From contig NZ_ALWB01000004.1 of the NCBI RefSeq assembly GCF_000332215.1, positions 1 to 54,532 of the forward strand: a stretch of DNA of 54,532 nt, read 5' to 3'. Shown in pieces: positions 1-4,017 of this stretch (position 1 is the stretch's first letter; the number at the start of each line of letters is the position of its first letter). The DNA is from Pseudanabaena biceps PCC 7429. GTDB lineage: Bacteria > Cyanobacteriota > Cyanobacteriia > Pseudanabaenales > Pseudanabaenaceae. Made by a program: the position numbers and the translations under genes. The notes under the pieces are model-generated. The model saw only the letters and a list, made by a program, of their open reading frames with translations. It had not been told where the DNA came from and ran no database searches.

Positions 1-344
1 AATTGGCAACTAGAGCGGTAGGTGGAGCGATCGCTGACAATATTTGGACAGTCTCGACTAGAGGAACAACTTCTGTATGAACAGGAGTTTCAACTAGTGT
101 AGTATTTGGAACATTTACAACATCAGTTGGATGTGAGAGATCGTGACTTGTATCTAAACTATTTCCAACATGATGGTCAGTCAACAAATCAGTCAAAACT
201 GGAACTTGCAAATCTCCCGAATCAAACAGACCACTGGGCGTGAGACGTGGTTCTAATATTCTTATCTTAATCTTTGATTTTCTAGACTTTCCAGAGTTAT
301 CAAGATTTTTTCCTAGAGTTTGACTGCAAATTATTAGAACTCAT
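1..344 (-). pseudogene. Truncated LEPR-motif surface/exported protein, N-terminal part, possible frameshift
   Basis: The minus strand has one frame open from the window edge to about position 340. It reads a Lys/Ser-rich segment, then KIRILEPRLTPSG, then a Thr/Val/His-rich low-complexity stretch. The LEPR core resembles the LEPR-XLL motif found near the N-terminus of very large bacterial adhesins and exported proteins. The only good start is ATG at 344-342, with AGG six bases upstream; its frame (MSSNNLQSNSRK) hits TGA after 14 codons, just past a run of six A. Removing one A joins the two frames. This may be a sequencing error, a slippage-controlled gene or a decayed gene. The rest lies outside the window. 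It is divergent from the M50-HlyD protein at 778, which could be its exporter (inference). Confidence 0.45.
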
Positions 345-777
345 GTGCCTAGGATTTTTATGCTTCGGGATAATTGCTGATAAATATAAAATGATTTCCA
401 AGAAGTTGGCAAGCATGAAAGCCAAAAAAAGTTATAAAAAGGTTATCATAAAGTTATAAAGAGTTGATAAATAGTATTTTTTTGGGTTTATATAAATTGT
501 AAGTTTTGAAAAAAAATTGAGTTAAAGAGTAGAATATTACATTGTTATTAATAGCTTTAATCTTTATTCAGAAAGCTTTTTAGGTAGTTTTAATTTTAAG
601 TTTGATCTTCAAAAAATGATTTAAGTCAACAATTAAAATCTTGATTCGCTACCTTAATATGCAAGATTTGCCGCTTTAAATTATCTGACTGATATTTCTT
701 AGCAATTTATTTAAGAACAAATTGGAAATAAATGGTGTAAACTTTAAAAAATTGATCTTTTAATATCTTTACTTCCT
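345..777. other. AT-rich divergent intergenic region
   Basis: This gap of 433 bases separates the LEPR-type gene (minus) from the M50-HlyD gene (plus). It is very AT-rich, with many A and T runs and no HIP1 site, and probably carries both promoters. I could not pick out a convincing -35/-10 pair, an RNA gene or a conserved repeat of the families seen elsewhere in the window. Confidence 0.4.
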
Positions 778-3249
778 ATGTCTTCAATATCCGAGACAAG
801 ATTGAAGTCGTCTGTGCATTGGGTTCAGCATCCTACTTTCTGGATTCTTCGCAATCCCGAAGATCTTACCTATATTGAAGTTGAAGATGATTTTAATAAA
901 TCAATTATTGATGATATAGATACTCTCAATTTGCCCTTGCCTTTAGTAGCGATTGTTCCCGCGATCGCCGAAAAATATGAGCTGACTCGAACAGAAGTTG
1001 CTAGTGTCATTCAACATTTACACCAAACAGGAATGTTGGTTGGGACAAAACCACCTAAGCCCCCTAAACGTAAATGGACACCCCTAGATCTACTTTACAT
1101 AAGATTTTCTTTAATCAATCCAGATACTTGGCTGAGTAATAATGTCAAATATTTAGAATGGATCTGGACGCGCACTACAGGCTATATTCTTCTATCTTTA
1201 CTGGTATTTGCGACAATTATTGCAATCGATCGCCATGCCAGCATCCTCAAAACAGGAAAATTAGTTTTGGCTCAGGGACATGGAGTCATTATTCCCTTTG
1301 CATTGCTCACATGCCTTGTTGTTTCTCTCCATGAACTCGCTCATGCTTTTACCCTCAAACATTACAAAGGCATTGTGCCAGAGATGGGTATTTTTCTCAT
1401 GTTGCTTATTCCTGCCTGTTATACCAATACTAGTGATTCATATCCGTTAAGAAGACATCAACAAGTCTTGGTCGTTGGTGCAGGTATAATCTGTCAAGTT
1501 TTCATGGCAGCGATCGGGCTGTTTGTATGGAACATTAGCGATCCAAGTGCAGAAATTAATACAATCGCATATTTGCTGATGGTCACAGGGCTAGTTACCC
1601 TTGCTATCAATTTAAATCCTTTATCTGGCGGCTTTGATGGTTACCACTTAGCAGTAGCAATCACAGGAATTAATAATCTCCGAAGCCGATCGCGTTTATT
1701 CTATCTACAATTGTTAAAACGCAAACCGATTGACGAAGAAGATAATTATGTACGTTGGGTATTAGCAATATATGCTCCCTTAAGTCTCGTATATATATTA
1801 TTCGTCTTCACCTTCCTAATTTGGACAATTGTAAGCTGGACAGGGCTCAATATACCTGCGATCGCGTTTACTCTTTTTATTCTCTGGCTAATCTACTTTT
1901 TTGTACCAACACCTAACTTTAAATTTATGAATAACTCTTCTAACTCGGCTGAATCACATTCTAATAAGCCTATGGTAACTTCGACTTCCCCTCCATCTAT
2001 TGATACTCCTCAATTTCTACCCACTAAAAAACGGAAGTTTCCTATTCTTTGTGTCTCATTAGCATTGCTTGGTGGGGCAATGTTTTTACCTGTCACTCAC
2101 CAAGTTGGCGGTAAAGTAGAACTAAAAACCCTACCAGAACTACGCCAGTTTGTTTATACCAATCAAGCAGTACCTTGCATTGTCAAAGACATACCTAAAA
2201 GAGTTAAACTTGGGAGTAAAGTGGCTAAGGGAGATAAATTAGTAGAATTATTTTGTAGTAATATTGAGGACAAAATATCTGCAACTAGAGAAAAGTTGTA
2301 TTTAGCTGAGAAGTCATTACTAAAAAATAACATTGACGTAGCCATTGCTAAGGCAAACTTAGAAAAAAAGAAAGCTGAAAGTCTCTCAGCAATAGATGAA
2401 GCGATCCGTCTGGATAGCCAATCAGGGAAAATAGCTCAGAGTGAACTTGATAAACTCTTAACAGAGAGAAATGGCTTACAACAAGAAATGGAGGTTGCGG
2501 AGAGAAAGCTAAATCAATTAAGATCTGTGGAAAAGGGAGTAATTCCACAAATATATTTATATGAAGCTGAAACTGCCTATACAAAACTAAAAAGTGCCTT
2601 TCTTAATAAAGAAGCAGAGATACTATATTCAAAAAATCGACTGAACGATCAAAGCCAAAGGGCTCAATCTAATTCTGAAATTAAGATGAGTGATGCTGAA
2701 GATGCACAATTGATCTACATTGCAAATCTAGAAGCTATTAGACTAACAGAGGATATTGATAGTTTCAAAGATCAATTAAAAAAACTTGAAGCTCAGCAGA
2801 AAGCCTTGATAATAAGGTCTGATCGAGATGGCATTGTATATTCTAAGGACAATATTGAACTTGATGTACTGATCGGTCAGGAGATTCCTTCTTCCAAGCT
2901 AATTATGGAAATTGCTAACACTGACAAGTTATTGGCAAAAGTCAAAGTCGATCATCGCGATCCTGAACTTGTCGAAATGAATGCAAAAGTTCAATTCCGC
3001 CCCGATCAAGCAAAGCATAGAATATACGAAGGAACTATTATTGACCGTGAACCATTGAATAATCAACCTGATAGTAATAACCCATCAAATTCAACAGAAT
3101 TTGAAATTGTAATTTATAATGATAATCCAGATAATCCCAAGCTTGCTCCTAATGCTATAGGATATGCCAAAATCTATTCAAAGGATATGCTTGTATTTCA
3201 GAGAATTCAGTTAGAGTTCATGCGACTTATTGATTCAAGATTCCTATAG
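778..3249 (+). CDS. M50-type metalloprotease/HlyD adaptor fusion membrane protein
   Basis: This 823-residue protein probably serves in the export or maturation of a peptide or protein. Residues 1-100 look like a PqqD-like winged-helix region. A multi-spanning region follows with the zinc motif HELAH (H185, E186, H189) and a second motif NPLSGGFDGYH (about 280-290) that supplies the third ligand, as in YydH/site-2-protease-like proteins. More membrane segments run to about 380, a hydrophobic segment lies near 425-440, and then comes an HlyD-like part: a lipoyl half-motif near 470, a long coiled coil (about 500-680), a second half-motif near 690, and a beta-barrel end. Fusions of this type occur beside bacteriocin and large-protein type I exporters. 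No ABC transporter partner is in the window. The ATG at 778 has no clear Shine-Dalgarno. Confidence 0.8.
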   Translation: MSSISETRLKSSVHWVQHPTFWILRNPEDLTYIEVEDDFNKSIIDDIDTLNLPLPLVAIVPAIAEKYELTRTEVASVIQHLHQTGMLVGTKPPKPPKRKWTPLDLLYIRFSLINPDTWLSNNVKYLEWIWTRTTGYILLSLLVFATIIAIDRHASILKTGKLVLAQGHGVIIPFALLTCLVVSLHELAHAFTLKHYKGIVPEMGIFLMLLIPACYTNTSDSYPLRRHQQVLVVGAGIICQVFMAAIGLFVWNISDPSAEINTIAYLLMVTGLVTLAINLNPLSGGFDGYHLAVAITGINNLRSRSRLFYLQLLKRKPIDEEDNYVRWVLAIYAPLSLVYILFVFTFLIWTIVSWTGLNIPAIAFTLFILWLIYFFVPTPNFKFMNNSSNSAESHSNKPMVTSTSPPSIDTPQFLPTKKRKFPILCVSLALLGGAMFLPVTHQVGGKVELKTLPELRQFVYTNQAVPCIVKDIPKRVKLGSKVAKGDKLVELFCSNIEDKISATREKLYLAEKSLLKNNIDVAIAKANLEKKKAESLSAIDEAIRLDSQSGKIAQSELDKLLTERNGLQQEMEVAERKLNQLRSVEKGVIPQIYLYEAETAYTKLKSAFLNKEAEILYSKNRLNDQSQRAQSNSEIKMSDAEDAQLIYIANLEAIRLTEDIDSFKDQLKKLEAQQKALIIRSDRDGIVYSKDNIELDVLIGQEIPSSKLIMEIANTDKLLAKVKVDHRDPELVEMNAKVQFRPDQAKHRIYEGTIIDREPLNNQPDSNNPSNSTEFEIVIYNDNPDNPKLAPNAIGYAKIYSKDMLVFQRIQLEFMRLIDSRFL

Positions 3250-3914: not shown

Positions 3915-4017
3915 TATAGCAACGTAAGGTTTGCTTACCAGATATGAGTGGCGGCGCTTTGCGCCGCCACTCATATCTGGGGTTTTGATTTGTCCCAGCT
4001 ATCTCTTACGTTGCTAT
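3915..4017. repeat. Family B hairpin element (copy 1)
   Basis: Ends TATAGCAACGTAAG and CTTACGTTGCTAT are inverted to each other. The core at 3938-3980 is a perfect palindromic hairpin built on GAGTGGCGGCG. Related copies lie at 6859-6975, 18429-18455 and 50603-50774. Lying downstream of the photolyase gene, it may also act as a terminator. Confidence 0.8.

Follow-up and report, generated by a model that had tools for sequence, protein, structure and literature searches.

Why does the start of a giant-protein gene stand back to back with a gene encoding a membrane protease fused to an HlyD-type adaptor, and do the two products work together? The question is raised by the left edge of the window, the stretch of 54,532 nucleotides analysed here, which is the entire contig C4 of the Pseudanabaena biceps PCC 7429 genome (G000). 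The original prediction saw in this arrangement a LEPR-XLL-type exported protein and its dedicated exporter. In our reading, to which we give a probability of about 0.6, the pair belongs to a system of RiPP recognition element (RRE) and site-2 protease, in many cases accompanied by HlyD, by which giant proteins resembling polymorphic toxins are recognised, cut and helped out of the cell. The window would then hold the enzyme of this leader-dependent processing and export system along with a single, broken copy of a substrate.

The M50 protein and its partners

The divergent gene is indeed an M50 metalloprotease fused to an HlyD adaptor, as was originally proposed, and its domains are listed together with the neighbouring features in Table 1. 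The HlyD half matches Pfam HlyD_3 (1.3e-6) and TIGR01843, the type I HlyD model (2.7e-7). An AlphaFold2 model of residues 1–391, based on an 18-sequence alignment (mean pLDDT 85), places strands at residues 14–17, 22–26 and 31–35 and helices at 38–49, 56–67 and 71–83, followed by the membrane domain. Residues 1–90 are thus predicted to adopt the RRE (PqqD-like) fold, a three-stranded sheet and then a three-helix winged bundle. RRE domains bind leader peptides, and the modelled part matches RRE structures, some of them determined together with a leader: ThcOx (5lq4, Z 9.2), lasso B1 with its leader (6jx3, Z 8.9), TbiB1 with its leader (5v1u, Z 8.1), the PbtF RRE (8t19, Z 7.6) and PqqD (5sxy, Z 6.0); Z scores of 8–9 are moderate for so small a domain, and Foldseek alone gave zero matches at E <= 0.001. 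Most M50 homologs carry, by sequence, an extra N-terminal segment of RRE type besides the first. Residues ~108–356 match the site-2 protease folds of MjS2P (3b4r), SpoIVFB (8vjl/8vjm) and RseP, and the zinc-ligand residues H185, E186, H189, N280, P281 and D287 are invariant in alignment A3. With HExxH, a downstream N-P...D and a multi-helix membrane domain, the M50 domain is a site-2 protease. The model of the full-length fusion is of low confidence (mean pLDDT 59.5, pTM 0.32) and was used for its outline only.

Table 1. Features at the left end of the window (positions of the forward strand).
Feature	Position	Strand	Details
Tagged giant-protein gene, 5' end	2..344	-	ATG at 342-344; cut by contig end; basis: 97% DNA identity to C175 gene
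N-terminal leader/tag, K/R-rich then RILEPRLTPSGLFDSGD	185..307	-	Profile A2 and motif alignment A2
Divergent intergenic region, tagged gene to M50-HlyD gene	345..777		
RRE-M50-HlyD fusion protein P0001, 823 aa	778..3249	+	
RRE-like (PqqD-fold) domain, residues 4-90, predicted three strands and three helices	787..1047	+	AF2 model, fold matches
Site-2-protease (M50) domain	1099..1845	+	HELAH 1330-1344; NLNPL...D region ~1609-1638
HlyD-like periplasmic adaptor half	2035..3249	+	Predicted transmembrane helix, long helical hairpin, beta domains

Searching the genomes of 85,000 species with the M50 alignment yielded 80 loci, cyanobacterial without exception. An HlyD-like gene follows the M50 gene or is fused to it in about 44 of them, the fused cases being the window, L128, L139 and L168. 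At E <= 1e-15 no HlyD was found in M50 genomes of the Microcoleus/Tychonema or Nostoc type, nor in six M50-negative genomes. The HlyD partner is therefore not obligatory, and the constant core of the system is the M50 protein with its RRE. In HlyD-less loci the gene after M50 encodes a small signal-peptide-like protein (L165–L201, 16 loci; Okeania L180–L185), of ~230 aa in Microcoleus/Tychonema and of ~108 aa with a PEP-CTERM-like tail in Okeania.

The left-edge gene copy and its paralogs

The minus strand of the window encodes the peptide KIRILEPRLTPSG at ~231–272, with K/R-rich sequence before it; the frame exits through the left edge, where it reads KSRKSKIKIRILEPRLTPSGLFDSGD, and continues off the contig. 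Its leader matches profile A2 with E 1.1e-15, this genome's own paralogs being among the seeds of the profile. The first 445 bases of the window match part of contig C175 at 97% identity, and residues 9–114 of the window copy align at 96% with the product of the C175 gene. That paralog is intact, with a 2416-aa frame from its ATG (L005:3133-10383, minus strand), and contains DUF4114, subtilase, SBBP, PPC, SH3 and M23 domains; the catalytic D, H and S of the subtilase are all present. A second paralog of 3615 aa, on contig C75, ends in an HExxH segment with a weak match to reprolysin-type peptidases, and a third copy, N-terminally truncated (residue 132 onward, 1707-aa frame), lies at the right end of the same contig.

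Relative to the intact paralog, the window copy has one extra base, a plus-strand T at ~314 (minus strand CTAGG vs CTGG), so that the natural ATG runs out of frame after ~11 codons; the frame with the LEPR-like motif is without a usable start. Either decay or a sequence error at the contig end may account for this base, and the copy appears to be broken or mis-assembled. The large exported protein foreseen at this edge is thus borne out in the motif peptide after a K/R-rich stretch and in the size of the paralogs, but the window copy itself is frameshifted, and export is a matter of the mechanism proposed below.

Contigs of this genome break at the tagged-gene repeat. The truncated copy at the right end of C75 may continue the window gene, but might equally well join the left end of C175; in exact-overlap joining the ends of C75 overlap neither the window nor C175, which leaves two candidate partners. 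Window positions 354–445 are repeated at both ends of C175. These ends are near-identical (L005:1-192 and L005:10400-10583), so the sequence upstream of the tagged gene is present twice, which suggests that tagged genes form a tandem array or that the contig is circular or collapsed. Farther into the window, an intergenic inverted repeat lies at 3936–4015, with the palindrome core GGCGGCGC..GCGCCGCC.

The N-terminal tag

Comparison of giant ORFs beside M50 homologs across other cyanobacteria revealed a shared N-terminal tag, a K/R-rich segment followed by [TS]F[IV]L[ED]x[IL][LIV][TS]P[SG][AG] and usually by an acidic tail such as DGGDD. Its core, in short form [T/S]-F-I-L-E-x-I-[L/I/V]-T-P-S, lies at a median of 32 residues after the first Met. 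Tagged proteins have no early Sec-like hydrophobic stretch, the maximal 15-residue hydropathy being mostly ~1, and further rounds of the motif profile added no loci. The LEPR-XLL label originally attached to the motif has been given up. NF012209 (LEPR-8K, a model of LEPR-XLL type with a curated cut-off of 17 bits) matched neither the N-termini nor the full proteins, and also found nothing in the P. biceps genome (no control genome matched either); what is conserved is FILEPI-x-TPS. Proteins of the LEPR-XLL kind are likewise giant, and they too carry near the N-terminus a short LEPR-like motif behind a basic stretch, but the conserved continuation here is TPS and not xLL. No NCBIfam model describes this tag.

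Architecture of the tagged proteins

Complete tagged proteins range from ~600 to 4400 aa. Subtilase domains were found in 21 and DUF4114 in 17 of 24 tagged proteins. A subtilase-like region is present in 45 of 52 complete proteins, with the full D/H/S triad in 32 by profile alignment (used in place of a simple regular expression, which was too strict), and absent from the other seven. Most tagged proteins are thus one family (leader, DUF4114, subtilase), and the conservation of the leader is partly shared ancestry. Across 1326 pairs, the front 650 aa are alike in 887 and the last 350 aa in 79, so that constant N-terminal parts are combined with variable C-terminal parts, as in the cargo of polymorphic toxin systems. 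The C-terminal parts (n=51) include M23 (12), SH3_3 (10), CHAP (8), SLT (2) and LysM (2), and among the others are lectins, one lipase, GH19 and one Cytotoxic (colicin-type RNase) domain. The protein with the latter (L187:2274-5269) is followed 24 bp downstream by a DUF6980 gene, a candidate immunity gene. This is the only clear pair of toxin and candidate immunity gene; the remaining C-terminal parts are mostly wall hydrolases or unassigned, and wall remodelling is therefore an alternative use. No match to the RTX nonapeptide (GGxGxDxL) was found in tagged ORFs.

Co-occurrence and linkage of the tag and the M50 gene

In an order-level sample of 38 genomes, the M50-HlyD gene occurs in P. biceps only. 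In a phylum sample of 386 genomes the M50 gene is present in 23, and strong tag matches (E ~1e-5 or better) occur in 19, all of them within these 23 (four M50-only genomes, no tag-only genome; Fisher exact 1.2e-28, a P value that ignores relatedness). When the genomes that seeded the profile are held out, the tag is present in 8/12 M50-positive genomes vs 0/363 (5.5e-14, relatedness again ignored); at genus level the figures are 12/16 vs 0/126 (2e-14), and 3/7 vs 0/126 (9e-5) in the hold-out. Of the four genomes with M50 but no tag, G099 has an M50 frame of just ~230 aa and G053 a distant homolog. Only one genome without M50, G064, shows any trace of the tag, a decayed 68-aa remnant (L115, G064:C1 ~2383502) that fuses the leader to the end of a subtilase domain.

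A tagged ORF lies within 10 kb of the M50 gene in 39 of the 80 loci, and 27 of these pairs are divergent with a spacing of 9–1470 bp; a control with reversed proteins gave 0 matches. At roughly two tagged genes per genome that has the tag, we estimate the chance of such proximity at ~1% or less. Up to seven tagged genes are found per genome, many unlinked to M50 (seven in G153, five in G249, four in G243, three in G333), which points to one enzyme serving many substrates. In one genus (G039, G333, G103, G243) the unlinked tagged genes lie near HlyD-like genes rather than near M50. As an evolutionary association, in co-occurrence and linkage, the proposed pairing of a substrate with its exporter is strongly upheld, while the export half of that proposal rests on the mechanism set out below. 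No ABC exporter, for which a search nearby had been proposed together with TolC, is linked to M50 across the 80 loci; HlyB-like ABC genes (best on C170, an 885-aa frame) and an OEP/TolC-type gene are present elsewhere in the P. biceps genome.

Two further families were seen in the neighbourhood. A ~350-aa family to which no role is assigned lies beside tagged genes or M50 at L006:15436-16524 and nine further loci (L090, L091, L143, L193, L194, L198, L207, L089, L192), with seven members long or near full length and two short fragments. Acetyltransferase-like (GNAT-looking) proteins of ~310–345 aa are encoded near tagged genes (L006:263-2256, L074:7606-8673, L075:11584-12651, L216:323-1432).

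Proposed mechanism and alternative explanations

From the tag, its co-occurrence and linkage with M50, the RRE and site-2-protease folds and the constant-front, variable-back layout, all of them computed, we infer leader binding, cleavage, an export route and toxicity as follows. By analogy with leader-reading enzymes, the RRE domain or domains of the M50 protein would bind the substrate leader (K/R-rich, ~FILEPILTPS) in the cytoplasm, with the FILEPI strand probably taken up as an extra beta strand. The protease domain, embedded in the membrane, would cut close by, in or around the TPSG(L/A)..DGGDD region, whereupon the freed giant protein would leave the cell. Where an HlyD partner is adjacent or fused, it may connect the step at the inner membrane with a channel of TolC type. 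The cargo's own subtilase in the constant front could release the remainder, whose variable back end is mostly a cell-wall hydrolase and sometimes nuclease-like or pore-like; its likely use would be antagonism toward other cells, or remodelling of their walls. Epipeptide and pearlin pathways use M50 proteases to cleave leader or scaffold peptides, and the M50 protein EpeP is thought to carry out both cleavage and export of its epipeptide (PMC10885120). A bolder version, in which an undescribed sorting and export system selects and exports giant polymorphic effectors by RiPP-type leader recognition (RRE) and intramembrane proteolysis rather than by Sec or an ABC exporter, with M50 joining in translocation, is tentative, and we consider it possible though doubtful. 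It counts against the export reading that proteins of 1000–4000 aa would have to cross the inner membrane with no linked ATPase.

One alternative is classical type 1 secretion, in which an unlinked HlyB/PrtD-type ABC exporter would move the cargo with the HlyD half as adaptor, while M50 would only trim the leader in a C39-like manner. The ABC and OEP/TolC-type genes noted above and the TIGR01843 match agree with this, but ABC genes are found so widely that their presence is barely informative, and the lack of ABC exporters at the M50 loci, the lack of RTX nonapeptide matches in tagged ORFs and the lineages that keep M50 and tag without HlyD make this explanation rather improbable. The same HlyD-less lineages favour a system of anchored proteolysis, where the RRE holds the giant protein at the membrane protease for release or activation, and the membrane is crossed by another route. 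Release of substrates is the usual role of site-2 proteases. Nevertheless, the M23, CHAP, SLT, LysM and SH3_3 domains of the cargo work extracellularly and HlyD accompanies M50 in more than half of the loci, and we regard proteolysis without export as unlikely. The tag might also be nothing but the conserved start of one protein family whose genes travel with M50 and bear no functional relation to it; the prevalence of subtilase-like domains and the frequent neighbourhood of the two genes fit such a view. It is hard to reconcile with the confinement of M50-unlinked tagged genes to M50 genomes, with the seven subtilase-less proteins that retain both tag and M50 linkage, and with DUF4114 proteins from same-genus genomes without M50, which align only from beyond the tag; a fused RRE in addition predicts a leader. 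Mere co-travel is accordingly quite unlikely, and recognition, cleavage and assisted export by the RRE/site-2-protease system remains the preferred reading.

Comparison with known systems

In the open-access literature searched, no description of this pairing of tag and M50 was found, and the system appears undescribed there. It looks like a tag-reading route by which filamentous cyanobacteria process and export enzymes and toxins of very large size. If so, leader-peptide recognition, so far a matter of small natural products, would extend to proteins thousands of residues long; the giant proteins that a cyanobacterium processes and exports could be predicted from a short tag and a single enzyme; and bloom- and mat-forming cyanobacteria would have an extra delivery route for antibacterial effectors.

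An RRE-fold domain with a membrane M50 protease recalls RiPP leader recognition and its M50 leader proteases (daptide NF041824, epipeptide YydH/EpeP), and NF041824 (4.4e-36) and NF058609 match the M50 protein, both below cut-off. The substrates here are multidomain proteins of 1000–4400 aa and not peptides, HlyD is adjacent or fused, and while RiPP loci combine a short precursor with a modifying enzyme, no recurrent modifying enzyme was seen among the locus neighbour clusters. With type 1 secretion the system shares the HlyD-like adaptor; it differs in its N-terminal tag, its cargo without detected RTX repeats and its lack of a linked ABC exporter, whereas a type 1 locus unites ABC exporter, HlyD and outer-membrane factor. 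Polymorphic toxin systems (PMC3482391) offer a constant front, a releasing-type peptidase, a variable C-terminal effector and, in one case here, a Cytotoxic domain followed by a small gene. The trafficking routes named in the part of the survey of Zhang et al. (2012) considered here are T2SS/Sec, T5SS, T6SS, PVC, T7SS, TcdB/TcaC, PrsW and MuF, and the terms M50 and HlyD are absent from that part (PMC3482391).

Sorting of the sortase or exosortase type is built on an unrelated enzyme, and the tag here differs in being N-terminal and non-hydrophobic; what the two have in common is one processing enzyme, many short-tag substrates and strict co-occurrence.
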